From Isoperla grammatica (taxonomy: Eukaryota; Arthropoda; Insecta; Plecoptera; Perlodidae), in NCBI GenBank assembly GCA_945910005.1, contig OX246749.1, positions 27,518,843-27,582,842 of the forward strand: DNA of 64,000 nt, read 5' to 3'. The translations under genes were made by a program, and so were the position numbers. Positions 1-45,734 of this stretch are shown in pieces. The notes beneath the pieces are model-generated. The model worked only from the letters and a program-made list of their open reading frames with translations, was not told the DNA's origin and did no database searches. Every line of letters begins with the position of its first letter. The first letter of the stretch is position 1.

Positions 1-114
1 AGAGTGACCAGGTTCCCGAACCACTGGTGGGCGTACTCGTGGGTTATGACACACACTATTCCCTGCTTATCGCTCGTCGTTGTCTTTCCTTCCTCGAGCA
101 GAAGCACCACCTCC
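1..114 (-). CDS. Aminopeptidase N (M1 family), exon 4, 5' part; runs off the window
   Basis: M1 metallopeptidases remove N-terminal residues from peptides; the APN branch is usually a membrane-anchored ectoenzyme. Read on the minus strand, this exon gives REVVLLLEEG followed by VITHEYAHQWFGNLVT, which contains the HEXXH zinc site (HEYAH). The two histidines bind zinc and the glutamate is catalytic in this family; the third zinc ligand lies beyond the window. The acceptor is 'cgccag' at 115-120. The phase fits exon 3 exactly: exon 3 ends with AG and this exon supplies the G of an Arg codon, joining GLVIYR to EVVLLL as expected just after GAMEN. The first 49 or so bases of this exon plus its acceptor are the source of the 77-bp tandem array directly upstream (higher coordinates). 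Confidence 0.88.
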
Positions 115-693
115 CTGGCGACAAGCACGCAAGTGTGACCTTCACATCGCTCGTCGTTGTCTTTCCTTCCTCGAGCAGAAGCCTCCCCTCCCTGGCGACA
201 AACACGCAAGTGTGACCTTCACATCGCTCGTCGTTGTCTTTCCTTCCTCGAGCAGAAGCCTCCCCTCCCTGGCGACAAACACGCAAGTGTGACCTTCACA
301 TCGCTCGTCGTTGTCTTTCCTTCCTCGAGCAGAAGCCTCCTCTCCCTGGCGACAAACACGCAAGTGTGACCTTCACATCGCTCGTCGTTGTCTTTCCTTC
401 CTCGAGCAGAAGCCTCCCCTCCCTGGCGACAAACACGCAAGTGTGACCTTCACATCGCTCGTCGTTGTCTTTCCTTCCTCGAGCAGAAGCCTCCCCTCCC
501 TGGCGACAAACACGCAAGTGTGACCTTCACATCGCTCGTCGTTGTCTTTCCTTCCTCGAGCAGAAGCCTCCCCTCCCTGGCGACAAACACGCAAGTGTGA
601 CCTTCACATCGCTCGTCGTTGTCTTTCCTTCCTCGAGCAGAAGCCTCCCCTCCCTGGCGACAAACACGCAAGTGTGACCTTCACATTCCTCGT
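115..693 (-). repeat. 77-bp tandem array built from the exon 4 splice acceptor
   Basis: About 7.5 head-to-tail copies of a 77-bp unit, almost identical to each other. On the minus strand each unit contains the acceptor 'gtcgccag', about 49 bases matching the start of APN exon 4, and a short spacer ending 'cttgcgtgtttgtc'. The genuine exon at 1-114 is the last, divergent copy: it continues with AAGCAGGGA where array copies read GTGAAGGTC. The small reading frames on both strands are periodic shadows of the unit and not genes. Confidence 0.93.
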
Positions 694-1181
694 TAGTGGT
701 CACGGCTGGCACGAAGATATGGGTGGTCAATAATCGAGTTAATACTGATATATTATATTGCAGTTAACACCACGAGCTATACCGGCGGAAGCGTATGCTT
801 CTGTTAGGGCCACCCTAGCCGGACAGGTCCAGGGGGAGAATCAAGGCAATTATAATGATGATGATATTTGGGTTTTACGTCCCATATTTTTGCCACCTGG
901 CTAACCAAGATGATTAGTAGGTGACTTATGAGGATGAACACGCCACATGTCCTAAACAGATCCATTACATATAGCGAAGGTCATCATAAGGGGAGTCCAG
1001 TTAGGGTAAGCAGGGCCTGGTGGGAGGAGAAAACTGCAGTATGGCATGGCGGAAAGCCACAGGGTCTACTTTCGACTACTCTTACGACTAGCAGGGACAC
1101 TCTGGGCTTTAAGGGCAGTCCACGTCCTACCTTCTCCGTGTCCATCCCTTTTACATACCACCAGTGAAGGTGAAGTTATAC
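694..1181. other. APN intron 3 remainder
   Basis: Unique sequence between the 77-bp array and exon 3. I see no coding homology, RNA gene or repeat here. The exon 3 donor is 'gtataa' on the minus strand at 1,181-1,176. Confidence 0.6.
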
Positions 1182-1490
1182 CTGTAGATCACCAGGCCCC
1201 AGTTTTCCATCGCACCGGCCTCAAACTGCGTCATGGCCACTTCGTCCATCTTGGGAAGAGTGAACTTGATGGCCGTATAACCCTCGAGCCACGCCAGGAT
1301 TGGAGGGCTGACCTTCAGAGAGTAGTGAGCTAGTTTGATGAGCGGAGGTTGGGCAAAGATCCTAAGGTTGGCTCCCTCGTCGCTCAGGTTGGCGAAGTCG
1401 GACACTACGAAGGCCAGGTTGTACGTGGACATGGGCGGTGTCTCTTGGAATGTGTCCCAGTACCGTCCGACGCCGGCGGGGGTGGCCAAG
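1182..1490 (-). CDS. Aminopeptidase N (M1 family), exon 3 with GAMEN motif
   Basis: 309-bp exon: one base completing a codon, 102 codons, then two bases. The frame reads WDTFQETPPMSTYNLAFVVSDF near the start and ends with QFEAGAMENWGLVIYR. GAMEN is the exopeptidase substrate-binding signature of M1 enzymes, and the TPPMSTYNLAF block is typical of the APN branch. The acceptor is 'gttcccccacag' (minus strand, just above 1,490) and the donor is 'gtataa'. Phase matches exon 2 upstream (CA plus C) and exon 4 downstream (AG plus G). No stop or frameshift is present, so this part of the gene looks functional even though its acceptor has been duplicated many times. Confidence 0.92.
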
Positions 1491-2390
1491 CTGTGGGGGA
1501 ACATCAGCACACAGATGACATCTAGTGTGTAACACTATGAAGGCCAGGTTGTACGTGGACATGGGCGGTGTCTCTTGGAACGTGTCCCAGTACCGTCCGA
1601 CGCCGGCCAAGCTGTGGGGGAACATCAGCACACAGATGACATCCAGTGTGTAACACTATGAAGGCCAGGTTGTACGTGGACATGGGCGGTGTCTCTTGGA
1701 ACGTGTCCCAGTACTGTCCGACGCCGGCCAAGCTGTGGGGTAACATCAGCACACAGATGACATCCAGTGTGTAACACTATGAAGGCCAGGTTGTACGTAG
1801 ACATGGGCGGTGTCTCTTGGAACGTGTCCCAGTACCGTCCGACGCCGGCCAAGCTGTGGGGGAACATCAGCACACAGATGACATCCAGTGTGTAACACTA
1901 TGAAGGCCAGGTTGTACGTGGACATGGGCGGTGTCTCTTGGAACGTGTCCCAGTACTGTCCGACGCCGGCCAAGCTGTGGAAGAACATCAGCACACAGAT
2001 GACATCCAGTGTGTAACACTATGAAGGCCAGGTTGTACGTGGACATGGGCGGTGTCTCTTGGAACGTGTCCCAGTACCGTCCGACGCCGGCCAAGCTGTG
2101 GGGTAACATCAGCACACAGATGACATCCAGTTTGTAACTATGAAGGCCAGGTTGTACGTGGACATGGGCGGTGTCTCTTGGAACGTGTCCCAGTACCGTC
2201 CGACGCCGGCCAAGCTGTGGGGGAACATCAGCACACAGATGACATCCAGTGTGTAACACTATGAAGGCCAGGTTGTACGTGGACATGGGCGGTGTCTCTT
2301 GGAACGTGTCCCAGTACCGTCCGACGCCGGCCAAGCTGTGGGGGAACATCAGCACATAGATGACATCCAGTGTGTAACACTATGAATGAA
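1491..2390 (-). repeat. 121-bp tandem array built from the exon 3 splice acceptor
   Basis: About seven copies of a 121-bp unit (one copy about 117 bp). Each unit has, on the minus strand, an acceptor-like 'gttcccccacag', roughly 80 bases matching the 5' end of APN exon 3 (ACCTGGCCTTC region), and a spacer containing 'gttacacactggatgtcat'. The true exon is the outermost copy and alone continues into the rest of the coding sequence; it also has a 9-base difference (GGCGGGGGT) near the acceptor. Frames across the array are shadows. Confidence 0.93.
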
Positions 2391-2840
2391 GGTCAGGTTG
2401 TACGTGGAGAAAGGTATAATTGCGTACGCTATTTTGGGTGTATACTATGTGCATCTAACTGCAATAGTCCGTAAATGCGAATCATATCGGCGGAACACTG
2501 TAAAAATGAAGAAATTAGGTAGGTATTGCTGTAAATAAACAATATTTTTTCATAACATGGCGGATAAACGTACAATTTTGAAATTATTGTCAAGTGTTGT
2601 TGGTACTGTTGATATGAACCTTTATGTGAAACATTATCTAAATCCGTGTGTTAGTTTTAATTTAATTAAATAAATCAACAAATTTTATTTTTCGGTAATT
2701 AATTTTTTGTAGGTTGGCATCTTCACGAATTTTGAAGGTTATGTTAACAGCATCGAGTTTAGTGGTCACGGGTGTTTACCGAAAATTTCAGCCAAATCCG
2801 TCAAGCCGTTTGACCTGTGCGTGACGAACAAAATTTGGCG
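2391..2840. other. AT-rich intron 2 sequence ending in an RTE-like tail
   Basis: AT-rich, with no coding signal. The last part (about 2,775-2,840) reads 'aaaatttcagccaaatccgt' and leads into (CA)n. This layout resembles the 3' end of RTE-type retroposons, where a short 'tttcag.c' motif precedes a simple tail. The family assignment is inference. Confidence 0.35.
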
Positions 2841-3027
<187 letters not shown>

Positions 3028-3161
3028 GACACACACACAGACAAAGCGCCAATCGAGTTGTATGGAGAGATTCACTCCGCTTCGCTACGCTCATCTAACT
3101 ATGACGCGCAGTTCTTCGAGTATGTAAATTGAGCACGACAGTATCAAATGCCTAATGGAAT

Positions 3162-5857: not shown

Positions 5858-8492
5858 CCTTTACTCACTGTTGGACCGGGTGGCCGTCCTGAGGCATGTT
5901 GGAGATAGACGTAATGTTGCCCGGCCTGGAGATTGTGACATTGTACTCGTTGTTGGACCGGGGGGCCATCCTGAGGCATGTTGGAGACAGACGTCATGTT
6001 GCCCAGCCTGGAGATTGTGACATTGTACTCACTGTTGGACCGGGGGGTCATCCTGAGGCATGTTGGAGATAGACGTCATGTTGCCCGGCCTGGAGATTGT
6101 AACAATGTACTCACTGTTGGACCGGGGGGCCATCCTGAGACATGTTGGAGACAGACGTCATGTTGCCCAGCCTGGAGATTGTGACATTGTACTCACTGTT
6201 GGACCGGAGGGCCATCCTGAGGCATGTTGGAGACGGACGTCATGTTGCCCAGACTGGAGATTGTGACATTGTACTCACTGTTGGACCGAGGGGCCATCCT
6301 GAGGCATGTTGGAGATAGACGTCATGTTGCCCGGCCTGGAGATTGTGACATTGTACTCACTGTTGGACCGGAGGGCCATCCTGAGGCATGTTGGAGACGG
6401 ACGTCATGTTGCCCAGACTGGAGATTGTGACATTGTACTCACTGTTGGACCGGGGGGCCATCCTGAGGCATGTTGGAGACAGACGTCATGTTGCCCAGCC
6501 TGGAGATTGTGACATTGTACTCACTGTTGGACCGGAGGGCCATCCTGAGACATGTTGGAGACGGACGTCATGTTGCCCAGACTGGAGATTGTGACAATGT
6601 ACTCACTGTTGGACCGGAGGGCCATCCTGAGGCATGTTGGAGACGGACGTCATGTTGCCCAGACTGGAGATTGTGACATTGTACTCACTGTTGGACCGGG
6701 GGGCCATCCTGAGGCATGTTGGAGACAGACGTCATGTTGCCCAGCCTGGAGATTGTGACAATGTACTCACTGTTGGACCGGGGGGCCATCCTGAGACATG
6801 TTGGAGACAGACGTCATGTTGCCCAGCCTGGAGATTGTGACATTGTACTCACTGTTGGACCGGAGGGCCATCCTGAGGCATGTTGGAGACGGACGTCATG
6901 TTGCCCAGACTGGAGATTGTGACATTGTACTCACTGTTGGACCGGGGGGCCATCCTGAGGCATGTTGGAGACAGACGTCATGTTGCCCAGCCTGGAGATT
7001 GTGACATTGTACTCACTGTTGGACCAGGGGGCCATCCTGAGACATGTTGGAGATAGACGTCATGTTGCCCGGCCTGGAGATTGTGACATTGTACTCACTG
7101 TTGGACCGAGGGGCCATCCTGAGGCATGTTGGAGATAGACGTCATGTTGCCCAGCCTGGAGATTGTGACATTGTACTCACTGTTAGACCGGGGGGCCATC
7201 CTGAGGCATGTTGGAGATGGACGTCATGTTGCCCAGCCTGGAGATTGTGACATTGTACTCACTGTTGGACCGGGGGGCCATCCTGGGGCATGTTGGAGAT
7301 AGACGTCATGTTGCCCAGCCTGGAGATTGTGACATTGTACTCACTGTTGGACCGGGGGGCCATCCTGAGGCATGTTGGAGACAGACGTCATGTTGCCCGG
7401 CCTGGAGATTGTGACATTGTACTCACTGTTAGACCGGGGGGCCATCCTGAGGCATGTTGGAGACAGACGTCATGTTGCCCAGCCTGGAGATTGTGACATT
7501 GTACTCACTGTTGGACCAGGGGGCCATCCTGAGACATGTTGGAGATAGACGTCATGTTGCCCGGCCTGGAGATTGTGACATTGTACTCACTGTTGGACCG
7601 AGGGGCCATCCTGAGGCATGTTGGAGATAGACGTCATGTTGCCCAGCCTGGAGATTGTGACATTGTACTCACTGTTGGACCGAGGGGCCATCCTGAGGCA
7701 TGTTTGAGACGGACGTCATGTTGCCCAGACTGGAGATTGTGACATTGTACTCACTGTTGGACCGGGGGGCCATCCTGAGGCATGTTGGAGATAGACGTCA
7801 TGTTGCCCGGCCTGGAGATTGTAACAATGTACTCACTGTTGGACCGGGGGGCCATCCTGAGGCATGTTGGAGACAGACGTCATGTTGCCCAGCCTGGAGA
7901 TTGTGACATTGTACTCACTTTTGGACCGGGGGGCCATCCTGAGGCATGTTGGAGATAGACGTCATGTTGCCCAGCCTGGAGATTGTGACATTGTACTCAC
8001 TGTTGGACCAGGGGGCCATCCTGAGGCATGTTGGAGATAGACGTCATGTTGCCCGGCCTGGAGATTGTAACAATGTACTCACTGTTGGACCGAGGGGCCA
8101 TCCTGAGGCATGTTGGAGACAGACGTCATGTTGCCCAGCCTGGAGATTGTGACATTGTACTCACTTTTGGACCGGGGGGCCATCCTGAGGCATGTTGGAG
8201 ATAGACGTCATGTTGCCCAGCCTGGAGATTGTGACATTGTACTCACTGTTGGACCGGGGGGCCATCCTGAGGCATGTTGGAGATAGACGTCATGTTGCCC
8301 GGCCTGGAGATTGTAACAATGTACTCACTGTTGGACCGGGGGGCCATCCTGAGGCATGTTGGAGACAGACGTCATGTTGCCCAGCCTGGAGATTGTGACA
8401 TTGTACTCACTGTTGGACCGGGGGGCCATCCTGAGGCATGTTGGAGATAGACGTCATGTTGCCCAGCCTGGAGATTGTGACATTGTACTCAC
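5858..8492 (-). repeat. 82-bp tandem array built from the APN exon 2 donor
   Basis: About 32-33 head-to-tail copies of an 82-bp unit. On the minus strand each unit contains roughly 60 bases of exon 2 coding sequence (the [14 protein letters not shown] stretch), the donor 'gtgagtac', and a few intronic bases that run straight back into the exon-like sequence. Copies differ by a handful of substitutions (for example CCGGCC or CCAGCC; GATAGAC, GACAGAC or GACGGAC), with visible higher-order alternation. The true exon 2 end at 8,493 is the first unit. All the 68-codon plus-strand frames are shadows. Confidence 0.95.
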
Positions 8493-8651
8493 TGTTGGAC
8501 CGGGGGGCCATCCTGAGGCATGTTGGAGATAGACGTCATGTTGCCCAGCCTGGAGATTCTGACAATGAACCTGGCTTTCAACTGCGGCTCGTCGAAGCAA
8601 GGGAAAGCTTTGCGAGCATTTGTAGGTTCAAACTGAGTTGTGGCGGCAAAC
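8493..8651 (-). CDS. Aminopeptidase N (M1 family), exon 2
   Basis: 159-bp exon encoding [27 protein letters not shown] and then [27 protein letters not shown] and FPCFDEP are among the most conserved blocks of M1 N-terminal domains, and SNMP follows at the usual distance. The acceptor is 'tttctcttcag' just above 8,651; the donor is 'gtgagt' at 8,492. Exon 1 leaves AG, and this exon's first base G completes Arg; it leaves CA for exon 3. There is no stop or indel. The 3' end of this exon seeds the 82-bp array, and a 401-bp hairpin element starts only about 30 bp upstream of its acceptor. Confidence 0.93.
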
Positions 8652-8682
8652 CTGAAGAGAAAGACGTGGGAGTTATCTTAAA

Positions 8683-9083: not shown

Positions 9084-9132
9084 GTAAAGGCCAGGATCTC
9101 ATCTTGGGAATACCTTTGATATGTGACAGATA

Positions 9133-12100
9133 ATCAAGTTTTTGTACGGTGGGTAAGGGGGGGACATCCTGCAGCGCGAGGCAGCGATGTCAGTGGCTGA
9201 CGTCAATGTACGCCCCATAGAGGTAGCTGCAAGATGATCATGTTTTAGTACGGTGGGTAAGAGGGAGACATCAACAGCGCGAGGCAGCGATGTCAGTGGC
9301 TGACGTCAATGTACGCCCCATAGAGGCAGCTGCTAGATGATCATGTTATAGTACGGTGGGTAAGGGGGGGACATCCTGCAGCGCGAGGCAGCGATGTCAG
9401 TGGCTGACGTCAATGTACGCCCCATAGAGGCAGCTGCTAGATGATCATGTTTTAGTACGGTGGGTAAGAGGGGGACATCAACAGCGCGAGGCAGCGATGT
9501 CGGTGGCTGACGTCAATACACGCCCCATAGAGGCAGCTGCAAGATGATCATGTTTTAGTACGGTGGGTAAGAGGGGGACATCAACAGCGCGAGGCAGCGA
9601 TGTCAGTAACTGACGTCAATGTACGCCCCATAGAGGCAGCTGCAAGATGATCATGTTTTAGTACGGTGGGTAAGGGGGGGACATCAACAGCGCGAGGCAG
9701 CGATGTCAGTGGCTGACGTCAATGTACGCCCCATAGAGGCAGCTGCAAGATGATCATGTTTTAGTACGGTGGGTAAGAGGGGGTCATCAACAGCGCGAGG
9801 CAGCAATGTCAGTGGCTGACGTCAATGTACGCCCCATAGAGGCAGCTGCAAGATGATCATGTTTTAGTACGGTGGGTAAGGGGGGGACATCAACAGCGCG
9901 AGGCAGCGATGTCAGTGGCTGACGTCAATGTACGCCCCATAGAGGCAGCTGCAAGATGATCATGTTTTAGTACGGTGGGTAAGGGGGGGACATCAACAGC
10001 GCGAGGCAGCGATGTCAGTGGCTGACGTCAATGTACGCCCCATAGAGGCAGCTGCAAGATGATCATGTTTTAGTACGGTGGGTAAGAGGGGGACATCAAC
10101 AGCGCGAGGCAGCGATGTCAGTGGCTGACGTCAATGTACGCCCCATAGAGGCAGCTGCAAGATGATCATGTTTAAGTACGGTGGGTAAGGGGGGGACATC
10201 AACAGCGCGAGGCAGCGATGTCAGTGGCTGACGTCAATGTACGCCCCATAGAGGCAGCTGCAAGATGATCATGTTTAAGTACGGTGGGTAAGAGGGGGAC
10301 ATCAACAGCGCGAGGCAGCGATGTCAGTGGCTGACGTCAATGTACGCCCCATAGAGGCAGCTGCTAGATGATCATGTTTTAGTACGGTGGGTAAGGGGGG
10401 GACACTAACAGCGCGAGGCAGCGATGTCAGTGGCTGACGTCAATGTACGCCCCATAGAGGCAGCTGCTAGATGATTATGTTTTAGTACGGTGGGTAAGAG
10501 GGGGACATCAACAGCGCGAGGCAGCGATGTCAGTAACTGACGTCAATGTACGCCCCATAGAGGCAGCTGCAAGATGATCATGTTTTAGTACGATGGGTAA
10601 GGGGGGGACATCAACAGCGCGAGGCAGCGATGTCAGTAACTGACGTCAATGTACGCCCCATAGAGGCAGCTGCAAGATGATCATGTTTTAGTACGGTGGG
10701 TAAGAGGGAGACATCAACAGCGCGAGGCAGCGATGTCAGTAACTGACGTCAATGTACGCCCCATAGAGGCAGCTGCAAGATGATCATGTTTTAGTACGAT
10801 GGGTAAGGGGGGGACATCAACAGCGCGAGGCAGCGATGTCAGTGGCTGACGTCAATGTACGCCCCATAGAGGCAGCTGCAAGATGATCATGTTTTAGTAC
10901 GGTGGGTAAGAGGGAGACATCAACAGCGCGAGGCAGCGATGTCAGTAACTGACGTCAATGTACGCCCCATAGAGGCAGCTGCAAGATGATCATGTTTTAG
11001 TACGGTGGGTAAGAGGGAGACATCAACAGCGCGAGGCGGCGATGTCAGTGGCTGACGTCAATGTACGCCCCATAGAGGCAGCTGCAAGATGATCATGTTT
11101 TAGTACGATGGGTAAGGGGGGGACATCAACAGCGCGAGGCGGCGATGTCAGTGGCTGACGTCAATGTACGCCCCATAGAGGCAGCTGCAAGATGATCATG
11201 TTTTAGTACGATGGGTAAGAGGGGGACATCAACAGCGCGAGGCAGCGATGTCAGTGGCTGACGTCAATGTACGCCCCATAGAGGCAGCAGCAAGATGATC
11301 ATGTTTTAGTACGATGGGTAAGGGGGGGACATCCTGCAGCGCGAGGCAGCGATGTCAGTGGCTGACGTCAATGTACGCCCCATAGAGGCAGCTGCTAGAT
11401 GATCATGTTTTAGTACGATGGGTAAGGGGGGGACATCCTGCAGCGCGAGGCAGCGATGTCAGTGGCTGACGTCAATGTACGCCCCATAGAGGCAGCAGCA
11501 AGATGATCATGTTTTAGTACGATGGGTAAGGGGGGGACATCCTGCAGCGCGAGGCAGCGATGTCAGTGGCTGACGTCAATGTACGCCCCATAGTGGCAGC
11601 TGCAAGATGATCATGTTTTAGTACGATGGGTAAGGGGGGGACATCCTGCAGCGCGAGGCAGCGATGTCAGTGGCTGACGTCAATGTACGCCCCATAGAGG
11701 CAGCTGCTAGATGATCATGCTTTAGTACGGTGGGTAAGAGGGGGACATCAACAGCGCGAGGCAGCGATGTCAGTGGCTGACGTCAATGTACGCCCCATAG
11801 AGGCAGCTGCAAGATGATCATGTTTTAGTACGGTGGGTAAGAGGGAGACATCAACAGCGCGAGGCAGCGATGTCAGTGGCTGACGTCAATGTACGCCCCA
11901 TAGAGGCAGCTGCTAGATGATCATGTTTTAGTACGGTGGGTAAGAGGGGGACATCAACAGCGCGAGGCAGCGATGTCAGTGGCTGACGTCAATGTACGCC
12001 CCATAGAGGCAGCTGCAAGATGATCATGTTTTAGTACGATGGGTAAGGGGGGGACATCAACAGCGCGAGGCAGCGATGTCAGTGGCTGACGTCAATGTAC

Positions 12101-15100
12101 GCCCCATAGAGGCAGCTGCAAGATGATCATGTTTTAGTACGATGGGTAAGGGGGGGACATCAACAGCGCGAGGCGGCGATGTCAGTGGCTGACGTCAATG
12201 TACGCCCCATAGAGGCAGCTGCAAGATGATCATGTTTTAGTACGGTGGGTAAGGGGGGGACATCAACAGCGCGAGGCAGCGATGTCAGTGGCTGACGTCA
12301 ATGTACGCCCCATAGAGGCAGCTGCTAGATGATCATGTTTTAGTACGGTGGGTAAGAGGGAGACATCAACAGCGCGAGGCGGCGATGTCAGTGGCTGACG
12401 TCAATGTACGCCCCATAGAGGCAGCTGCTAGATGATCATGTTTTAGTACGGTGGGTAAGGGGGGGACATCAACAGCGCGAGGCAGCGATGTCAGTGGCTG
12501 ACGTCAATGTACGCCCCATAGAGGCAGCTGCAAGATGATCATGTTTTAGTACGGTGGGTAAGGGGGGGACATCAACAGCGCGAGGCAGCGATGTCAGTGG
12601 CTGACGTCAATGTACGCCCCATAGAGGCAGCTGCAAGATGATCATGTTTTAGTACGGTGGGTAAGGGGGGGACATCAACAGCGCGAGGCAGCGATGTCAG
12701 TGGCTGACGTCAATGTACGCCCCATAGAGGCAGCTGCTAGATGATCATGTTTTAGTACGGTGGGTAAGAGGGGGACATCAACAGCGCGAGGTGCGATGTC
12801 AGTGGCTGACGTCAATGTACGCCCCATAGAGGCAGCTGCTAGATGATCATGTTTTAGTACGGTGGGTAAGAGGGAGACATCAACAGCGCGAGGCAGCGAT
12901 GTCAGTGGCTGACGTCAATGTACGCCCCATAGAGGCAGCTGCTAGATGATCATGTTTTAGTACGGTGGGTAAGGGGGGGGACATCCTGCAGCGCGAGGCA
13001 GCGATGTCAGTGGCTGACGTCAATGTACGCCCCATAGAGGCAGCTGCAAGATGATCATGTTTTAGTACGGTGGGTAAGAGGGGGTCATCAACAGCGCGAG
13101 GCAGCGATGTCAGTGGCTGACGTCAATGTACGCCCCATAGAGGTAGCTGCAAGATGATCATGTTTTAGTACGGTGGGTAAGGGGGGGACATCCTGCAGCG
13201 CGAGGCAGCGATGTCAGTGGCTGACGTCAATGTACGCCCCATAGAGGCAGCTGCAAGATGATCATGTTTTAGTACGGTGGGTAAGAGGGGGACATCAACA
13301 GCGCGAGGCAGCGATGTCAGTGGCTGACGTCAATGTACGCCCCATAGAGGCAGCTGCAAGATGATCATGTTTTAGTACGGTGGGTAAGAGGGAGACATCA
13401 ACAGCGCGAGGCAGCGATGTCAGTGGCTGACGTCAATGTACGCCCCATAGAGGCAGCTGCAAGATGATCATGTTTTAGTACGGTGGGTAAGAGGGGGTCA
13501 TCAACAGCGCGAGGCAGCGATGTCAGTGGCTGACGTCAATGTTCGCGTCATAGAGGCAGCTGCAAGATGATCATGTTTTAGTACGGTGGGTAAGAGGGGG
13601 TCATCAACAGCGCGAGGCAGCGATGTCAGTGGCTGACGTCAATGTACGCCCCATAGAGGTAGCTGCAAGATGATCATGTTTTAGTACGGTGGGTAAGAGG
13701 GAGACATCAACAGCGCGAGGCAGCGATGTCAGTGGCTGACGTCAATGTACGCCCCATAGAGGCAGCTGCAAGATGATCATGTTTTAGTACGGTGGGTAAG
13801 AGGGAGACATCAACAGCGCGAGGCAGCGATGTCAGTGGCTGACGTCAATGTACGCCCCATAGAGGTAGCTGCAAGATGATCATGTTTTAGTACGGTGGGT
13901 AAGAGGGGGACATCAACAGCGCGAGGCAGCGATGTCAGTGGCTGACGTCAATGTACGCCCCATAGAGGTAGCTGCAAGATGATCATGTTATAGTACGGTG
14001 GGTAAGAGGGGGACATCCTGCAGCGCGAGGCAGCGATGTCAGTGGCTGACGTCAATGTACGCCCCATAGAGGCAGCTGCAAGATGATCATGTTTTAGTAC
14101 GGTGGGTAAGAGGGGGACATCAACAGCGCGAGGCAGCGATGTCAGTGGCTGACGTCAATGTACGCCCCATAGAGGCAGCTGCTAGATGATCATGTTATAG
14201 TACGGTGGGTAAGAGGGGGACATCCTGCAGCGCGAGGCAGCGATGTCAGTGGCTGACGTCAATGTACGCCCCATAGAGGTAGCTGCAAGATGATCATGTT
14301 TTAGTACGGTGGGTAAGAGGGGGTCATCAACAGCGCGAGGCAGCGATGTCAGTGGCTGACGTCAATGTACGCCCCATAGAGGTAGCTGCAAGATGATCAT
14401 GTTTTAGTACGGTGGGTAAGGGGGGGACATCCTGCAGCGCGAGGCAGCGATGTCAGTGGCTGACGTCAATGTACGCCCCATAGAGGTAGCTGCAAGATGA
14501 TCATGTTTTAGTACGGTGGGTAAGGGGGGGTCATCAACAGCGCGAGGCAGCGATGTCAGTGGCTGACGTCAATGTTCGCGTCATAGAGGCAGCTGCAAGA
14601 TGATCATGTTTTAGTACGGTGGGTAAGGGGGGGACATCCTGCAGCGCGAGGCAGCGATGTCAGTGGCTGACGTCAATGTACGCCCCATAGAGGCAGCAGC
14701 AAGATGATCATGTTTTAGTACGGTGGGTAAGAGGGGGTCATCAACAGCGCGAGGCAGCGATGTCAGTGGCTGACGTCAATGTTCGCGTCATAGAGGCAGC
14801 TGCAAGATGATCATGTTTTAGTACGGTGGGTAAGGGGGGGACATCAACAGCGCGAGGCAGCGATGTCAGTGGCTGACGTCAATGTACGCCCCATAGAGGC
14901 AGCTGCAAGATGATCATGTTTTAGTACGGTGGGTAAGGGGGGGACATCAACAGCGCGAGGCAGCGATGTCAGTGGCTGACGTCAATGTACGCCCCATAGA
15001 GGCAGCTGCAAAATGATCATGTTTTAGTACGGTGGGTAAGAGGGGGACACCAACAGCGCGAGGCAGCGATGTCAGTGGCTGACGTCAATGTACGCCCCAT

Positions 15101-16762
15101 AGAGGCAGCTGCAAGATGATCATGTTTAAGTACGGTGGGTAAGAGGGAGACATCAACAGCGCGAGGCAGCGATGTCAGTGGCTGACGTCAATGTACGCCC
15201 CATAGAGGCAGCTGCTAGATGATCATGTTTTAGTACGGTGGGTAAGGGGGGGACATCAACAGCGCGAGGCAGCGATGTCAGTGGCTGACGTCAATGTACG
15301 CCCCATAGAGGCAGCTGCTAGATGATCATGTTTTAGTACGGTGGGTAAGAGGGGGTCATCAACACCGCGAGGCAGCGATGTCAGTGGCTGACGTCAATGT
15401 ACGCCCCATAGAGGCAGCTGCTAGATGATCATGTTTTAGTACGGTGGGTAAGGGGGGGACATCAACAGCGCGAGGCAGCGATGTCAGTGGCTGACGTCAA
15501 TGTACGCCCCATAGAGGCAGCTGCAAGATGATCATGTTTTAGTACGGTGGGTAAGGGGGGGACACTAACAGCGCGAGGCAGCGATGTCAGTGGCTGACGT
15601 CAATGTACGCCCCATAGAGGCAGCTGCAAGATGATCATGTTTTAGTACGGTGGGTAAGGGGGGGACACTAACAGCGCGAGGCAGCGATGTCAGTGGCTGA
15701 CGTCAATGTACGCCCCATAGAGGCAGCTGCTAGATGATCATGTTTTAGTACGGTGGGTAAGGGGGGGACACTAACAGCGCGAGGCAGCGATGTCAGTGGC
15801 TGACGTCAATGTACGCCCCATAGAGGCAGCTGCAAGATGATCATGTTTTAGTACGGTGGGTAAGGGGGGGACATCCTGCAGCGCGAGGCAGCGATGTCAG
15901 TGGCTTACGTCAATGTACGCCCCATAGAGGCAGCTGCAAGATGATCATGTTTTAGTACGGTGGGTAAGGGGGGGACATCAACAGCGCGAGGCAGCGATGT
16001 CAGTGGCTGACGTCAATGTACGCCCCATAGAGGCAGCTGCAAGATGATCATGTTTTAGTACGGTGGGTAAGGGGGGGACATCAACAGCGCGAGGCAGCGA
16101 TGTCAGTGGCTGACGTCAATGTACGCCCCATAGAGGCAGCTGCTAGATGATCATGTTTTAGTACGGTGGGTAAGAGGGAGACATCAACAGCGCGAGGCAG
16201 CGATGTCAGTGGCTGACGTCAATGTACGCCCCATAGAGGCAGCTGCAAGATGATCATGTTTTAGTACGGTGGGTAAGAGGGGGTCATCAACAGCGCGAGG
16301 CAGCGATGTCAGTGGCTGACGTCAATGTACGCCCCATAGAGGCAGCTGCTAGATGATCATGTTTTAGTACGGTGGGTAAGAGGGAGACATCAACAGCGCG
16401 AGGCAGCGATGTCAGTGGCTGACGTCAATGTACGCCCCATAGAGGCAGCTGCAAGATGATCATGTTTTAGTACGGTGGGTAAGGGGGGGACATCAACAGC
16501 GCGAGGCAGCGATGTCAGTGGCTGACGTCAATGTACGCCCCATAGAGGCAGCTGCAAGATGATCATGTTTTAGTACGGTGGGTAAGAGGGGGTCATCAAC
16601 AGCGCGAGGCAGCGATGTCAGTGGCTGACGTCAATGTACGCCCCATAGAGGCAGCTGCAAAATGATCATGTTTTAGTACGGTGGGTAAGAGGGGGACATC
16701 AACAGCGCGAGGCAGCGATGTCAGTGGCTGACGTCAATGTACGCCCCATAGAGGCAGCTGCT
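9133..16762. repeat. 103-bp satellite array, about 74 copies, each with a TGACGTCA octamer
   Basis: Head-to-tail array in APN intron 1. The unit is 103 bp, or 104 bp in the variant with 'catcctgcagcg' in place of 'catcaacagcg'. The constant core includes GCGAGGCAGCGATGTCAGT, GGCTGACGTCAATGTACG and CCCCATAGAGGCAGCTGC. Nearly every copy holds TGACGTCA, the consensus cAMP-response (CRE/ATF) octamer; one copy at about 15,905 has TTACGTCA. Variant classes (gagggggaca, gagggagaca, ggggggaca, gggtca; GTTCGCGTCAT) recur in blocks, which suggests segmental expansion. No long open frame and no similarity to an APN exon were recognised. Confidence 0.97.
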
Positions 16763-16781
16763 TATCTTGATACAGTCGTCG

Positions 16782-17264: not shown

Positions 17265-18857
17265 GATTGCGCGCGCGTTTACCCTGAGGGACGTAGTTCT
17301 ACGGTCGGCCGCTCGGTGCGCGCGTTTACCCTGAGGGACGTAGTTCTACGGTCGGCCGCTCTGTGCGCGCGTTAACCCCGAGGGACGTAGTTCTACGGTC
17401 GGCCGGTCGGTAAGCGCGTTAACCCCGAGGGACGTAGTTCTACGGTCGGCCGCTCGGTGCGCGCGTTTACCCTTAGGGACGTAGTTCTACGGTCGGCCGC
17501 TCGGTGAGCGCGTTAACCCCGAGGGACGTAGTTCTACGGTCGGCCGCTCAGTGCGCGCGTTAACCCTGAGGGACGTAGTTCTACGGTCGGCCGTTCGGTG
17601 CGCGCGTTAACCCTGAGGGACGTAGTTCTACGGTCGGCCGCTCGGTGCGCGCGTTAACCCTGAGGGACGTAGTTCTACGGTCGGCCGCTCGGTGCGCGCG
17701 TTTACCCTGAGGGACGTAGTTCTACGGTCGGCCGCTTGGTGCGCGCGTTTACCCTGAGGGACGTAGTTCTACGGTCGGCCGCTCGGTGCGCGCGTTTACC
17801 CTGAGGGACGTAGTTCTACGGTCGGCCGCTTGGTGCGCGCGTCTACCCTGAGGGACGTAGTTCTACGGTCGGCCGCTCGGTGCGCGCGTTTACCCTGAGG
17901 GACGTAGTTCTACGGTCGGCCGCTCGGTGCGCGCGTTTACCCTGAGGGACGTAGTTCTACGGTCGGCCGCTCGGTGCGCGCGTCTACCCTGAGGGACGTA
18001 GTTCTACGGTCGGCCGCTTGGTGCGCGCGTTTACCCTGAGGGACGTAGTTCTACGGTCGGCCGCTCGGTGCGCGCGTTTACCCTGAGGGACGTAGTTCTA
18101 CGGTCGGCCGCTTGGTGCGCGCGTCTACCCTGAGGGACGTAGTTCTACGGTCGGCCGCTCGGTGCGCGTGTTTACCCCGAGGGACGTAGTTCTACGGTCG
18201 GCCACTCGGCGCGCGCGTTTACCCTTAGGGACGTTGTTCTACGGTCGGCCGCTCGGTGAGCGCGTTAACCCTGAGGGACGTAGTTCTACGGTCGGCCGCT
18301 CGGTGCGCGCGTTTACCCTTAGGGACGTAGTTCTACGGTCGGCCGCTCGGTGAGCGCGTTAACCCTGAGGGACGTAGTTCTACGGTCGGCCGCTCGGTGC
18401 GCGCGTTTACCCTGAGGGAGGTAGTTCTACGGTCGGCCGCTCGGTGCGCGCGTTTACCCTGAGGGACGTAGTTCTACGGTCGGCCGCTCGGCGCGCGCGT
18501 TTACCCCGAGGGACGTAGTTCTACGGTCGGCCGCTCGGTGCGCGCGTAAACCCTGAGGGACGTAGTTCTACGGTCGGCCGCTCGGTGCGCGCGTTTACCC
18601 TGAGGTACGTAGTTCTACGGTCGGCCGCTCTGTGCGCGCGTTAACCCTGAGGGACGTAGTTCTACGGTCTGCCGCTTGGTGCGCGAGTTAACCCTGAGGG
18701 ACGTAGTTCTACGGTCTGCCGCTCGGTACGCGAGTTAACCCTGAGGGACGTAGTTCTACGGTCGGCCGCTCGGTGCGCGCGTTTACCCTGAGGGACGTAG
18801 TTCTACGGTCGGCCGCTCGGTGCGCGCGTTTACCCTGAGGGACGTAGTTCTACGGTC
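17265..18857. repeat. 47-bp satellite, left block (about 34 copies)
   Basis: Unit core GACGTAGTTCTACGGTC, then GGCCGCTCGGTGCGCGCG, then TTTACCCTGAG, 47 bp in total and CpG-rich. Substitution variants (GTTAACC, GTCTACC, GAGCGCG) recur. The block ends abruptly at 18,857, where a LINE is inserted, and resumes at 24,271. Confidence 0.96.
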
Positions 18858-19056
18858 CGTCGTTGTCTGGTTATGTCTGCTGCATGAGTACAGACATGTG
18901 GTAGTTAAGTGCCGACTCCTACGGGGGGTCATAACTTAAGAATGAATTAAGGTATGGTCGATTTATTGTTTAGAGTAAGGAGGCCACTAGGTGGCTGGAT
19001 GTACTATTTGGTTAAGGATAATTTGTTGGTTTTCAGGGCCACGGGGGGGGGGGGGA

Positions 19057-23829: not shown

Positions 23830-24270
23830 AGTGGCAGATGAGTCTATTTGATTGGGGGGGGGGGGGGGGGAGATGAATGGTTGTTGTAGGTAGACAATAG
23901 GGGTAGTAGGTTCCCTAGGGAATTGAACTAGGCCTACTAATAACTATTGTGATACAATGGATGAGTCGGCACTTTTAGTAACTACCATGTGGGCTAGCCC
24001 AGGGGGTATTTCCCCTTAGACCAACCCTGTCTGTACTCACTGTGTGACCTCCTCGTCTGGGAATGATTGTTCCTTCCTTCCCGGGGGATGATGGTCCCCT
24101 ATGGTATGCTGGATGTGTCTCCTGGTCTGTGGGTGTCCCCTGCTAGTGGGGGGCGGTTCCCGCCGCGGACTGGAAATTTCCACTGTTGTTGTTATTCACT
24201 GAATGCACTTTGATAGTCGCTTGGGATCGTCGGAACAGGTCCGGCACCTTCAAGCTACAGCGTGGTGCTC

Positions 24271-24535
24271 GTAGTTCTACGGTCGGCCGCTCTGTGCGCG
24301 CGTTTACCCTTAGGGACGTAGTTCTACGGTCGGCCGCTCTGTGCGCGCGTTTACCCTTAGGGACGTAGTTCTACGGTCGGCCGCTCGGTGAGCGCGTTAA
24401 CCCTGAGGGACGTAGTTCTACGGTCGGCCGCTCGGTGCGCGTGTTTTCCCTGAGGGACGTAGTTCTACGGTCGGCCGCTCGGCGCGCGCGATTACCCTGA
24501 GGGACGTTGTTCTACGGTCGGCCGCTCGGTGCGCC
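24271..24535. repeat. 47-bp satellite, right block (about 5.6 copies)
   Basis: Same unit as 17,265-18,857, resuming exactly at the LINE target duplication. It ends near 24,535 with GGTGCGCCACCG. Confidence 0.95.
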
Positions 24536-24839: not shown

Positions 24840-27800
24840 ACCTCAATGAAACCAAGGAGCGTAGACGACTCACGCCCCATCCCCACTTGAGCGACACTGA
24901 GGCGCCGGTTATTGTGAGCTTACTCAGCTGACGGCTTACGCCCCATCCCCACTTGACCGACACCGAGGCGCCCGTTATTGTGTGCCTGCTCAGCTGACGG
25001 CTCACGCCCCATCCCCACTTGAGCGACACCGAGGCGCCGGTTATTGTGAGCTTACTCAGCTGACGGCTTACGCCCCATCCCCACTTGAGCGACACCGAGG
25101 CGCCCGTTATTGTGTGCCTGCTCAGCTGACGGCTCACGCCCCATCCCCACTTGAGCAACACCGAGGCGCCCGTTATTGTGAGCTTGCTCAGCTGACGGCT
25201 CACGCCCCATCCCCACTTGAGCGACACCGAGGCGCCGGTTATTGTGAGCCTGCTCAGTTGACGGCTCACGCCCCATCCCCACTTGAGCGACACCGAGGCG
25301 CCGGTTATTGTGAGCTTGCTCAGCTGACGGCTCACGCCTCATCCCCACTTGAGCGACACCGAGGCGCCGGTTATTGTGAGCCTGCTCAGTTGACGGCTCA
25401 CGCCCCATCCCCACTTGAGCAACACCGAGGCGCCCGTTATTGTGAGCTTGCTCAGCTGCCGGCTCACACCCCATCCCCACTTGAGCGACACCGAGGCGCC
25501 GGTTATTGTGAGCCTTCTCAGCTGACGGCTCACGCCCCATCCCCACTTGAGCAACACCGAGGCGCCCGTTATTGTGAGCTTGCTCAGCTGACGGCTCACG
25601 CCTCATCCCCACTTGAGCGACACCGAGGCGCCGGTTATTGTGAGCCTGCTCAGTTGACGGCTCACGCCCCATCCCCACTTGAGCGACACCGAGGCGCCCG
25701 TTATTGCGAGCTTGCTCAGCTGACGGCTCACGCCCCATCCCCACTTGAGCGACACCGAGGCGCCGGTTATTGTGAGCCTTCTCAGCTGACGGCTCACGCC
25801 CCATCCCCACTTGAGCGACACCGAGGCGCCGGTTATTGTGAGCTTACTCAGCTGACGGCTTACGCCCCATCCCCACTTGAGCGACACCGAGGCGCCCGTT
25901 ATTGTGTGCCTGCTCAGCTGACGGCTCACGCCCCATCCCCACTTGAGCGACACCGAGGCGCCGGTTATTGTGAGCTTACTCAGCTGACGGCTTACGCCCC
26001 ATCCCCACTTGAGCGACACCGAGGCGCCCGTTATTGTGTGCCTGCTCAGCTGACGGCTCACGCCCCATCCCCACTTGAGCAACACCGAGGCGCCCGTTAT
26101 TGTGATCTTGCTCAGCTGACGGCTCACGCCCCATCCCCACTTGAGCGACACCGAGGCGCCGGTTATTGTGAGCCTGCTCAGTTGACGGCTCACGCCCCAT
26201 CCCCACTTGAGCGACACCGAGGCGCCCGTTATTGCGAGCTTGCTCAGCTTACGGCTCACGCCCCATCCCCACTTGAGCGACACCGAGGCGCCGGTTATTG
26301 TGAGCCTTCTCAGCTGACGGCTCACGCCCCATCCCCACTTGAGCGACACCGAGGCGCCCGTTATTGCGAGCTTGCTCAGCTGACGGCTCACGCCCCATCC
26401 CCACTTGAGCGACACCGAGGCGCCGGTTATTGTGTGCCTGCTCAGCTGACGGCTTACGCCCCATCCCCACTTGAGCGACACTGAGGCGCCGGTTATTGTG
26501 AGCTTGCTCAGCTGACGGCTCACGCCCCATCCCCACTTGAGCGACACTGAGGCGCCGGTTAATGTGAGCCTGCTCAGCTGACGGCTCACGCCCCATCCCC
26601 ACTTGAGCGACACCGAGGCGCCGGTTATTGTGAGCTTGCTCAGCTGACGGCTCACGCCCCATCCCCACTTGAGCGACACCGAGGCGCCGGTTATTGTGAC
26701 CCTGCTCAGCTGACGGCTCACGCCCCATCCCCACTTGAGCGACACTGAGGCGCCGGTTATTGTGAGCCTGCTCAGCTGACGGCTCACGCCCCATCCCCAC
26801 TTGAGCGACACCGAGGCGCCGGTTATTGTGAGCCTGCTCAGCTGACGGCTCACGCCCCATCCCCACTTGAGCGACACTGAGGCGCCGGTTATTGTGAGCT
26901 TGCTCAGCTGACGGCTCACACCCCATCCCCACTTGAGCGACACCGAGGCGCCGGTTATTGTGAGCCTGCTCAGCTGACAGCTCACGCCCCATCCCCACTT
27001 GAGCGACACCGAGGCACCGGTTATTGTGAGCCTGCTCAGCTGACGGCTCACGCCCCATCCCCACTTGAGCGACACCGAGGCGCAGGTTATTGTGAGCCTG
27101 CTCAGCTGACGGCTCACGCCCCATCCCCACTTGAGCGACACCGAGGCGCCGGTTATTGTGAGCCTGCTCAGCTGACGGCTCACGCCCCATCCCCACTTGA
27201 GCGACACCGAGGCGCAGGTTATTGTGAGCCTGCTCAGCTGACGGCTCACGCCCCATCCCCACTTGAGCGACACCGAGGCGCAGGTTATTGCGAGCTTGCT
27301 CAGCTGACGGCTCACGCCTCATCCTCACTTGAGCGACACCGAGGCGCAGGTTATTGTGAGCCTGCTCAGCTGACGGCTCACGCCCCATCCCCACTTGAGC
27401 GACACCGAGGCGCCGGTTATTGTGAGCCTGCTCAGCTGACGGCTCACGCCCCATCCCCACTTGAGCGACACTGAGGCGCCGGTTATTGTGAGCCTGCTCA
27501 GCTGACGGCTCACGCCTCATCCCCACTTGAGTGACACCGAGGCGCCCGTTATTGTGAGCCTGCTCAGTTGACGGCTCACGCCCCATCCCCACTTGAGCGA
27601 CACTGAGGCGCCCGTTATTGCGAGCTTGCTCAGCTGACGGCTCACGCCCCCTCCCCACTTGAGCGACACCGAGACGGCGGTTATTGTGAGCCTGCTCAGC
27701 TGACTGCTCACGCCTCATCCCCACTTCAGCGACACCGAGGCGCAAGTTATTGTGAGCCTGCTCAGCTGACGGCTCACGCCCCATCCCCACTTGAGCGACA

Positions 27801-30245
27801 CCGAGGCGCCGGTTATTGTGAGCTTGCTCAGCTGACGGCTCACGCCTCATCCCCACTTGAGCGATACCGAGGCGCAAGTTATTGTGAGCCTGCTCAGCTG
27901 ACGGCTCACGCCCCATCCCCACTTGAGCGACACCGAGGCGCCGGTTATTGTGAGCTTGCTCAGCTGACGGCTCACGCCCCATCCCCACTTGAGCGACACC
28001 GAGGCGCCGGTTATTGTGAGCCTGCTCAGCTGACGGCTCACGCCCCATCCCCACTTGAGCGACACCGAGGCGCCGGTTATTGTGAGCCTGCTCAGCTGAC
28101 TGCTCACGCCTCATCCCCACTTCAGCGACACCGAGGCGCCGGTTATTGTGAGCCTGCTCAGCTGACGGCTCACGCCCCATCCCCACTTGAGCGACACCGA
28201 GGCGCCGGTTATTGTGAGCCTGCTCAGCTGACGGCTCACGCCCCATCCCCACTTGAGCGACACCGAGGCGCCGGTTATTGTGAGCCTGCTCAGCTGACGG
28301 CTCACGCCTCATCCCCACTTGAGCGACACCGAGGCGCCGGTTATTGTGAGCCTGCTCAGCTGACGGCTCACGCCTCATCCCCACTTGAGCGACACCGAGG
28401 CGCCGGTTATTGTGAGCTTGCTCAGCTGACGGCTCACGCCCCATCCCCACTTGAGCGACACCGAGGCGCCCGTTATTGTGAGCTTGCTCAGCTAACGGCT
28501 CACGCCCCATCCCCACTTGAGCGACACTGAGGCGCCGGTTATTGTGAGCTTGCTCAGCTGACGGCTCACGCCCCATCCCCACTTGAGCGACACTGAGGCG
28601 CCGGTTATTGTGAGCTTGCTCAGCTGACGGCTCACGCCCCATCCCCACTTAAGCGACACCGAGGCGCCGGTTATTGTGAGCCTGCTCAGCTGACGGCTCA
28701 CGCCCCATCCCCACTTGAGCGACACTGAGGCGCCGGTTATTGTGAGCTTGCTCAGCTGACGGCTCACACCCCATCCCCACTTGAGCGACACCGAGGCGCC
28801 GGTTATTGTGAGCTTGCTTAGCTGACGGCTCACACCCCATCCCCACTTGAGCGACACTGAGGCGCCGGTTATAGAGGACTCAAAACTAACATAGATAGCG
28901 CTGCTAAGCAACCTCCTTTCAGCGCCATTAATGAATAATAACAATACAACAACAATGAAAATTGACAGCTAGACCACTCCTAATAGAAGTTTATTTTCTT
29001 GCCACCAGAATGCGTCTAATGTATTTTGAGTGCTCTATTGTGAGCCTTCTCAGCTGACGGCTCACGCCCCATCCCCACTTGAGCGACACCGAGGCGCCGG
29101 TTATTGTGAGCCTTCTCAGCTGACGGCTCACGCCCCATCCCCACTTGAGCGACACCGAGGCGCCCGTTATTGCGAGCTTGCTCAGCTGACGGCTCACGCC
29201 CCATCCCCACTTGAGCGACACCGAGGCGCCGGTTATTGTGAGGTTGCTCAGCTGACGGCTCACGCCCCATCCCCACTTGAGCGACACCGAGGCGCCCGTT
29301 ATTGTGAGCCTTCTCAGCTGACGGCTCACGCCCCATCCCCACTTGAGCGACACCGAGGCGCCCGTTATTGTGAGCCTGCTCAGCTGACGGCTCACGCCCC
29401 ATCCCCACTTGAGCGACACCGAGGCGCCGGTTATTGTGAGCTTGCTCAGCTGACGGCTCACGCCCCATCCCCACTTGAGCAACACTGAGGCGCCGGTTAT
29501 TGTGAGCCTGCTCATCTGACGGCTCACGCCCCATCCCCACTTGAGCGACACTTAGGCGCCCGTTATTGCGAGCTTGCTCAGCTGACGGCTCACGCCCCAT
29601 CCCTACTTAAGCGACACCGAGGCGCCGGTTATTGTGAGCCTTCTCAGCTGACGGCTCACGCCCCATCCCCACTTAAGCGACACCGAGGCGCCCGTTATTG
29701 TGAGCCTGCTCAGCTGACGGCTCACGCCCCATCCCCACTTGAGCGACACCGAGGCGCCGGTTATTGTGAGCCTTCTCAGCTGACGGCTCACGCCCCATCC
29801 CCACTTGAGCGACACCGAGGCGCCCGTTATTGCGAGCTTGCTCAGCTGACGGCTCACGCCCCATCCCCACTTGAGCGACACCGAGGCGCCGGTTATTGTG
29901 TGCCTGCTCAGCTGACGGCTTACGCCCCATCCCCACTTGAGCGACACCTAGGCGCCCGTTATTGTGAGCTTGCTCAGCTGACGGCTCACGCCCCATCCCC
30001 ACTTGAGCGACACCGAGGCGCAGGTTATTGTGAGCCTGCTCAGCTGACGGCTCACGCCCCATCCCCACTTGAGCGACACCGAGGCGCCGGTTATTGTGAG
30101 CCTGCTCAGCTGACGGCTCACACCCCATCCCCACTTGAGCGACACCGAGGCGCCGGTTATTGTGAGCTTGCTCAGCTGACGGCTCACGCCCCATCCCCAC
30201 TTGAGCGACACCGAGGCGCCGGTTATTGTGAGCTTGCTCAGCTAC
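24840..30245. repeat. 66-bp satellite array, about 80 copies, open in several frames
   Basis: Unit core CAGCTGACGGCTCACGCC, CCATCCCCACTTGAGCGACA, CCGAGGCGCCGGTTATTG, then TGAGC(C/T)TGCT; 66 bp in total. Because 66 is divisible by three and the unit lacks stops in several frames, very long open frames run through it on both strands (for example 500 codons on plus, 799 and 570 on minus), made of 22-residue repeats such as SRQLSRLTITGASVSLKWGW. Substitutions are scattered over all codon positions and several frames are open at once, so protein coding is unlikely. The array lies in APN intron 1 and is interrupted by a MITE at 28,873-29,035. Confidence 0.95.
28873..29035. mobile_element. 163-bp MITE inside the 66-bp satellite
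   Basis: The only non-satellite segment in the array. Ends are inverted: AGAGGACTCAAAA at the left, TTTTGAGTGCTC at the right. The satellite is restored by removing the segment with one copy of TAT (28,870-28,872 and 29,036-29,038), which suggests a 2-3 bp target duplication. Non-coding and AT-rich inside. Confidence 0.75.
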
Positions 30246-33194: not shown

Positions 33195-33265
33195 CCCCGA
33201 AACAGAATTCGAACCCTGGGCCATCTGCATTGGAAGCAGGACTAAACCCTCTAGCCTAACGAGCC
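33195..33265 (-). repeat. tRNA-like segment (tRNA pseudogene or SINE head)
   Basis: On the minus strand: an A-box-like TAGGCTAGAGG, an anticodon-arm-like CTGCTTCCAATGCAG, and a perfect B-box GGTTCGAATTC at normal spacing. The T and acceptor stems do not pair well, so a functional tRNA is unlikely. A tRNA-derived SINE head or tRNA pseudogene fits better. It lies about 360 bp downstream of APN exon 1, in intron 1. Confidence 0.45.
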
Positions 33266-33627
33266 ACACACTTGAGAGACCAACGAGCCAAGGCATTAGC
33301 AAGTGAACACTAATCCAGGAGATTTAGACAAGTTGGGGGACACAATCAAGTTGCCTCTTTTGACTTGCAGAGTCATGTTGGGCATGTTCTACTGCGACAT
33401 CAGGCAAAAGGAGGCCTTAGGGGTAAGATTTAAATAAAATGAAATTGACTAAGAGTATAACTGCAAGAAGGAAAGACATATCTTTGTCGCCTATTACTCT
33501 TACGTCTGGCAGAGTCAACCTGAATTTACTCACCCCGGACAAGGTATTAAACTAAAACATTGGTGACGTAGGTTCACACGATGCAGTGCGCGGTAAACAA
33601 GATAAGCGTTCTGAGAAGTAGGCCTAC

Positions 33628-34127
33628 CTCTTTTCGCCGGATGCGGTCTTATAGGCGCTCAAGTAGAAGCCCGACATGTTTGTATGCAGCGAGCCCGTGT
33701 AGTTCATGCTCACTTCGTAGTCCTCGTCGGCCTGCAACCTGGCCTCCAACTCGATCACGTAGAAGTGTCTCAGCGTGTCCTCCGACGTCCTCACCACCGC
33801 CACCTCGCTATTGTCCGCCACCCTCCTCACCGCCAGGCTGTCGTTGTGCACCTCCAGCCCGTCCTCGTGCAGACAGATGGAGCTCACGTCAGCCAAGGCG
33901 GTGAACCTGATCTCGACGCGGCCGTCGAAGGTCAAGTTCTCGGGTATGAACGGAACGAGCCACAACTTGTAGTGTGTCGGCCTCCAGTGCGGTGCCAGTC
34001 TGTAGTCGATGTCGTCTGGAGGCAGCTCTGAGACCCTCATTAAGGACATGGGGTCTGGCTCGCTGCTGGCTGACCCGCACGCGGCCAGCACCACCATCAA
34101 CGCTACCACTCGGTACATCTGGCTCAC
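33628..34127 (-). CDS. Aminopeptidase N (M1 family), exon 1 with signal peptide
   Basis: 500-bp coding exon (166 codons plus two bases). The start at 34,127 gives MSQMYRVVALMVVLAACGSA, a hydrophobic leader consistent with secretion; an alternative Met lies three codons in. It then reads YRLAPHWRPTHYKLWLVPFI, the usual start of the M1 N-terminal beta domain, with several Asn-X-Ser/Thr sites, and ends in SGFYLSAYKTASGEKR. A short cytoplasmic tail plus signal anchor is usual for APN; here the leader looks cleavable, which would suit a secreted or GPI-anchored form as in some arthropods (inference). The donor is 'gtaggc' at 33,627. It joins exon 2 in frame to give GEKRFAATQFEP. Confidence 0.92.
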
Positions 34128-45690: not shown

Positions 45691-45734
45691 TTATTTTATA
45701 TTTTTTAGCCTTAAAGAATCTTGCAATCGAATAT

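Follow-up and report, generated by a model that had tools for sequence, protein, structure and literature searches.

How does the boundary between an exon and an intron become the repeat unit of a minisatellite, and what does this do to the gene that carries it? The question was raised by a stretch of 64,000 nucleotides from the stonefly Isoperla grammatica (contig OX246749.1, positions 27,518,843 to 27,582,842), referred to here as the window. It was part of C17 (40.6 Mb) in an 874-Mb genome and contained the start of an aminopeptidase N (APN) gene, which began at position 34118 on the minus strand. A preliminary description of this DNA had reported that three exon-intron boundaries of the gene were each amplified into a tandem array, and all three arrays proved to be real. 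With a probability of roughly three in four, we consider them to be minisatellites of the mirage type that straddle predicted boundaries, originated from tandem duplication and persisted since exon-proximal splicing leaves the spare copies intronic. The preliminary description knew of no named process of this kind; a name does exist, since such structures are called mirages in lancelets, according to the accessible text of two reports (PMC3087553, PMC3902484).

Arrays at the exon boundaries of the APN gene

The exons and junction arrays of the gene inside the window were the following (arrays as delimited by Tandem Repeats Finder; a slash marks the predicted boundary).

33628..34118, minus strand: APN exon 1, from the start codon to the donor GTAGGC
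8493..8651, minus strand: APN exon 2, outermost donor CAACA/GTGAGT
5862..8564, minus strand: array of 33.0 copies of an 82-bp unit across the exon 2 donor CAGTGAGT
1182..1490, minus strand: APN exon 3, outermost acceptor CCACAG/CTTGG
1484..2408, minus strand: array of 7.6 copies of a 121-bp unit across the exon 3 acceptor
1..114, minus strand: APN exon 4 (portion in the window), outermost acceptor CGCCAG/GGAGG
69..693, minus strand: array of 8.1 copies of a 77-bp unit across the exon 4 acceptor

When exons 1 to 4 were joined at the outermost copies by the GT/AG rule, they gave an open frame of 357 residues. The claim that the arrays are centred on junctions and leave the outermost copy intact was upheld. 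The translation matched solved APN from residue 38 onward (best E 2.9e-61), the M1 catalytic domain (PF01433) had matches in the window, and the spliced product contained GAMEN and HEYAH, which we take to represent the GAMEN and HExxH motifs of peptidase family M1 and aminopeptidase N. Arthropods ranked at the top of the search with the 357 residues, followed by vertebrates, an echinoderm and cnidarians. In a search with 845 residues of APN, the named proteins among the 120 listed were all from arthropods, at 31-40% identity. These rankings speak against a lancelet as the host.

The inner copies retained splice signals. The 82-bp array had 33 donor-like sites with at most two mismatches, 30 of them exact, and the 121-bp and 77-bp arrays had eight acceptor motifs each, counting the outermost. 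Comparison of the three units by blastn gave no match among them. Since the arrays lay at different exons, had dissimilar units and differed in presence and absence among paralogs, the first proposal of independent events is supported.

The gene was followed beyond the window through exon 12. Each internal end of the 12 predicted exons was flanked by GT after or AG before, and 8 of the 22 junctions carried arrays (d2, a3, a4, d5, a7, d8, a11 and a12). Namely, three donors and five acceptors bore about 8 to 33 copies each. The five arrays outside the window were as follows.

Exon 5 donor: 79-bp unit, 9.0 copies
Exon 7 acceptor: 101-bp unit, 19.9 copies
Exon 8 donor: 72-bp unit, 12.7 copies (C17:27477852-27478761, L029/L030)
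Exon 11 acceptor: 59-bp unit, 9.0 copies
Exon 12 acceptor, chosen by reading phase: 115-bp unit, 8.0 copies, taking in 8 nt of the exon

A second 101-bp array stopped 13 nt short of the exon 10 acceptor and included a degraded copy of a piece of an exon that lies upstream. Just past the window edge, exon 4 (C17:27518772-27518956) contained a run of seven T, one base more than in eight other records from seven loci. The extra T either shifts the frame by +1 or reflects an error of assembly. Preservation of the reading frame was therefore shown only within the window, for the 357 residues.

Copy number and single-copy states among paralogs

Related APN genes were spread along C17, and several of them carried arrays at the same junctions. 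The number of copies ranged from about 8 (in the window) to 46 for the 121-bp unit and reached 43 for the 82-bp unit, although some arrays ran off the edge of the sequence retrieved. Other paralogs had one copy: the 82-bp unit was single in L014, L018 and L020, the 77-bp unit in L013, L017 and L019, and the 79-bp unit in L026, which also had a single, diverged acceptor in place of the 77-bp array. Because single-copy and arrayed paralogs stood side by side, the arrays were gained or lost at different times. The positions of the exon 2 donor and the exon 4 acceptor were identical in paralogs with and without arrays. In the paralog region at 18.5 Mb of C17 (L026/L027), the 82-bp and 121-bp arrays were directly joined, so that intron 2 consisted almost wholly of array plus about 0.5 kb.

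These paralogs bear on the possibility that the assembly collapsed or falsely expanded the repeats. It is true that the exact copy number of long arrays is difficult to assemble, and in one paralog region (L024) a run of N adjoined the 77-bp array. However, several loci had arrays at the same junctions with differing copy numbers, far-end flanks and unit variants, and other paralogs were cleanly single-copy. We regard an artefact as very improbable.

The single-copy paralogs suggest a first step in which 59-121 bp, comprising the end of an exon, the splice site and some intron, would have been duplicated with microhomology that was short at most. At the joins in these paralogs there were short matches only: ACGAG beside the 77-bp join, where about one base was strictly shared at the breakpoint, and AGT near the 82-bp join (by eye). 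A long microhomology was sought in the flanks beyond the array edges and not found. The preliminary description had considered slippage seeded by microhomology between exon and intron; the short matches at the joins lend this weak support. The spread of copy numbers points to a further step, in which an array would grow and shrink by unequal exchange or slippage.

Predicted consequences for splicing

In the explanation that we prefer, the outermost donor or acceptor would be used, the mRNA would stay unchanged and all remaining copies would be intronic. What would happen otherwise was predicted for seven arrays by reading through one extra unit. The extra unit introduced a stop codon in d2, a4, d5, a7 and a11. 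At a3 (121 bp) it caused a frameshift with no stop within the stretch read, and at d8 (72 bp) it was in frame, the only such case among the seven (the 115-bp array at a12 was not one of them). Since most inner sites would yield frameshifts or stops, silent passengers are favoured.

The same result bears on the suggestion that the arrays multiply splice-site choices, so that the enzyme would be tuned or diversified through a choice of donor or acceptor among the copies. The inner sites were mostly intact, as counted above, and the 72-bp array stayed in frame across eight copies. Nevertheless, six of the seven arrays gave a stop or a frameshift, which speaks against protein diversification, and the GT of the 82-bp donor varied like the exon part of the unit (0.031 per base against a mean of 0.030). 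Moreover, copy number varied widely among the paralogs. We therefore consider regulated splice-site choice to be improbable.

Signs of exchange between distant loci

A search with the 121-bp unit, which skips very common words, scored 213 matches at eight candidate places. The matches listed all fell at seven APN loci of C17, each of which included exact copies. The 182 full-length units of eight records from seven loci differed by 0.6-1.9% within records and by 0.7-2.0% between them. Loci separated by as much as 22 Mb had near-identical units, whereas the neighbouring coding sequence differed by up to 17%. This contrast suggests that units were exchanged among distant APN loci.

The paralog at 18.5 Mb was the most informative case. 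Its 121-bp units differed by 0.7-1.3% from those elsewhere, while its exon 3 past the unit differed by 15-17%. The coding end of exon 3 within the unit had no difference from the array consensus (0/73); in comparison with the window, exon 3 had 1 difference in 73 positions inside the unit and 37 in 227 past it (Fisher P 3.7e-4). At the 13.2 Mb gene (L008), the coding start of exon 4 bore the array variant. The outer exon 3 copy of the window had a 9-nt stretch that was missing from the inner copies, and the outer copies were of the short form at four of the seven loci. The near-identity of distant loci is consistent with a last step, in which non-allelic conversion or transfer within the chromosome would homogenise the units and sometimes overwrite the coding end of an exon.

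Junction arrays in other genes

We rejected the idea that the arrays are a peculiarity of APN because junction-spanning repeats were also present in protein-kinase genes and in an ABCA transporter gene. For the kinases, 26 short internal exons were taken from 139 protein-kinase matches and picked by coordinates before any sequence was seen. Twenty were chosen first, two of them deliberately on C17, and six were added after the first result; the flanks were 350 or 300 bp per side. In 4 of the 26 exons a repeat spanned the donor and its first copy was intact; the exon pieces of these four matched the kinase domain.

L036, C17: donor-spanning repeat of 81-84 bp, at least about 13 copies when its continuation L056 is included
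L052, C14: donor-spanning repeat, at least 3 copies
L057, C1: donor-spanning repeat, 2 copies
L062, C13: donor-spanning repeat, 2 copies

Outside the matched exons, L052 had a 61-bp array of 4.9 copies and L038 a 38-bp repeat of 2.1 copies. A preference for donors over acceptors was not supported in this sample (4/26 against 0/26, P 0.11). Among the negative controls, no array with a unit above 30 bp was found in L001-L006, and L007 contained a dispersed 148-bp repeat only. The ABCA case lay within the window, next to the APN gene.

36231..36401, minus strand: last exon of ABCA, from the acceptor TTCCAG/GTGATG to the stop codon
36375..36539, minus strand: 84-bp duplication (two copies) across the acceptor of this exon

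Junction-centred arrays at other exons and in other genes were thus represented by five more arrays in APN, by the kinase exons and by the ABCA gene. The initial inventory of three arrays was right as far as it went, but omitted the ABCA duplication in the window and the five APN arrays beyond it.

Do arrays fall on junctions more often than by chance?

Thirteen arrays were counted in the APN gene. Two blocks, a 59-bp one lying upstream and the second one of a 47-bp array, were left out as pieces of split arrays. Also left out were two 150-bp arrays of a dispersed repeat that recurs in the right part of the window, an 87-bp array beyond the limits of the gene, microsatellites, and repeats in about two copies. 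Eight of the 13 spanned junctions. When units of these lengths were placed at random on the collapsed gene, the mean was 0.31-0.54 and the maximum 5 (20,000 draws in each of eight settings, uniform or restricted to windows with a GC content no lower than 0.50, 0.53 or 0.55, with exon-only seeds in or out). The probability of at least 8 of 13 depended on the length of the non-array gene when the arrays were born: 5e-10 for 63 kb, 5e-6 for 20 kb, 0.0016 for 10 kb and 0.09 for 6 kb. Thus, the junction bias was above the uniform and GC-matched expectation, yet it depended on the gene length at the time the arrays arose.

One explanation is that junctions are actively targeted: a process linked to transcription or splicing (e.g., R-loop breaks near exon ends) would make them hot spots of tandem duplication beyond what is merely tolerated. 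The excess of junction arrays, which held with exon-only seeds excluded too, agrees with this, as does the kinase sample, in which four repeats were junction-spanning against one or two intron-only (P 0.014-0.035). On the other hand, the excess was not significant for a 6 kb non-array gene, the array edges had no long sequence match, and two other APN genes (L032 and L033) had no junction arrays in their fetched parts, which covered 16 matched exon pieces and whose sole repeats had units of 15-18 bp in two to three copies. These genes were compact, about 6 kb being enough for 7 matched exon pieces in one and 9 in the other. Because of this compactness, and because the excess depends on ancestral gene length, we do not regard active targeting as demonstrated and consider it a possible but rather doubtful cause.

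Alternatively, these may be ordinary minisatellites of a minisatellite-rich genome, seeded anywhere, with the exon-internal ones purged and the junction-spanning ones left as survivors. In agreement with this, intron 1 of the same gene contained arrays of like unit length at no junction.

9128..16761, no strand assigned: 103-bp array of 74 copies, confined to intron 1; L025, the paralog at 16.7 Mb, has about 0.6 copy
17271..18857, no strand assigned: 47-bp array of 34 copies, intron 1 only, with a second block at 24270-24534; present in L025 too
24864..30243, no strand assigned: 66-bp array of about 79 copies, confined to intron 1; L025 has about 0.5 copy

Moreover, both the window arrays of the gene (GC 0.54-0.65) and its exons (0.53-0.60) were GC-rich in comparison with the window without arrays (0.42). 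However, the 148-, 108-, 150- and 84-bp arrays of the window were not (0.29-0.45), and GC matching without exon-only seeds still expected 0.35-0.54 of 13 at junctions, with the proviso that the gene was not short in its ancestral state. GC-rich seeding was rejected as the sole cause because GC-rich windows spanned junctions about as seldom as all windows. We give the survival of ordinary minisatellites a chance slightly under even. Active targeting and ordinary minisatellites are two versions of the first step, and both are compatible with mirage-type arrays carried as intronic spares.

Several observations weigh against mirage-type arrays as silent products of tandem duplication and exchange, or limit this explanation. 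The use of the outermost sites is a prediction from genomic sequence. The 72-bp array was open over eight copies, and retained copies could add 24-residue repeats to the enzyme. The single-copy states may be contracted arrays and not the state before the arrays. The most diverged C17 paralog, at 18.5 Mb, lacked the 77-bp and 79-bp arrays and had the 82-bp and 121-bp ones. The coding end of its exon 2 was not overwritten, with 6/67 differences from the window inside the unit and 6/91 before it. The junction excess is smaller if the genes were compact at the birth of the arrays. Finally, 22 of the 26 kinase exons had no junction-spanning repeat, their exon ends being taken from the family match and not base by base.

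With these points considered, junction arrays are probably a widespread and mostly silent route of gene reshaping. A stronger proposal is only tentative, and we judge it somewhat more apt to fail than to hold: a genome-wide process may turn junctions into minisatellites (in about one in six or seven of the sampled kinase exons), and the arrays may then move between paralogs megabases apart and overwrite coding exon ends, which would make junctions hot spots of both duplication and concerted evolution.

Other features of the window

Between the two 47-bp blocks of intron 1, a LINE-like retroelement (minus strand, about 18860-24260) was recognised by eye, as though inserted into the array. Upstream of APN exon 1 there was an 87-bp array (34676-35807), the unit of which was also found upstream of exon 1 in the paralogs L014 and L020, with about one copy in L018. 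A second APN gene at 36 kb was considered and rejected, since the neighbour there was the end of the ABCA transporter. At this gene end on the minus strand (36231-36950 and about 36955-41524), one exon appeared by eye to be broken by a long terminal repeat retroelement that looked like Gypsy.

Farther along, exons of a HARBI-like transposase were present at 43106-54250. The first ten relatives listed were 41-47% identical, those with names being from arthropods; all named matches were from arthropods except one fish species. An AT-rich 148-bp array lay at 45744-46787, and its unit recurred in L007, which lies on a different chromosome, C6. Two oppositely oriented 150-bp arrays (58078-58656 and 61289-61867) were taken as a dispersed repeat because the unit recurred in L010 and L011.

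Comparison with known systems

The closest system was found in lancelets, where mirages, tandem repeats across exon-intron boundaries, are described in Adh3, TnC, the globins BflGb6 and BflGb9, and PGBD5 in the accessible text (PMC3087553, PMC3902484). According to the same text, the Adh3 data and globin RT-PCR suggest that regular splicing is undisturbed (PMC3087553), and a model of intron gain was also proposed (PMC3087553, PMC3902484). As far as that text goes, the APN arrays share with mirages the repeats that span a boundary on the donor or the acceptor side, the authentic outer copy and the splice signals in many copies. Unlike lancelet mirages, they occurred in an arthropod, eight in one gene, with single-copy paralogs and signs of exchange megabases apart; one paralog had up to about 46 copies, compared with 2-6 units given for two lancelet globins in the accessible text. 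Unrelated genes also carried arrays here, in a sample chosen blind to sequence. Thus, the APN arrays have the anatomy of mirages and differ in density per gene, exchange between loci and arthropod host.

Our literature search on mirages and minisatellites found only the lancelet reports, and a search directed at insects found none. A search directed at arthropods turned up, among other reports, one on a prawn lectin family with coding repeats. In the literature found, junction-spanning arrays were reported only from lancelets and from some human duplicates. The APN family combines single-copy, expanded and exchanged states in an arthropod, so that three questions can be tested within one genome. 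Do junctions attract tandem duplication? How does the spliceosome settle on one site when dozens are nearly identical? Do the arrays contribute to the growth or gain of introns, or to the concerted evolution of exon ends?

In human genes within segmental duplications, internal tandem repeats at exon-intron boundaries, with units averaging 30 bp, are described in the accessible text together with altered splicing and putative new introns (PMC2812944). The stonefly and human cases are alike, within what that text covers, in having minisatellite-size repeats at the junctions of recently duplicated paralogs. They differ in that the outer site here preserved the frame in the window and no new intron was seen. 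A model of intron gain by tandem genomic duplication reportedly has a new intron formed out of duplicated exon sequence. The APN arrays resemble it in the duplication of a splice signal within a gene; unlike in that model, existing introns here merely lengthened, and the exon 2 donor and the exon 4 acceptor showed no new intron position.

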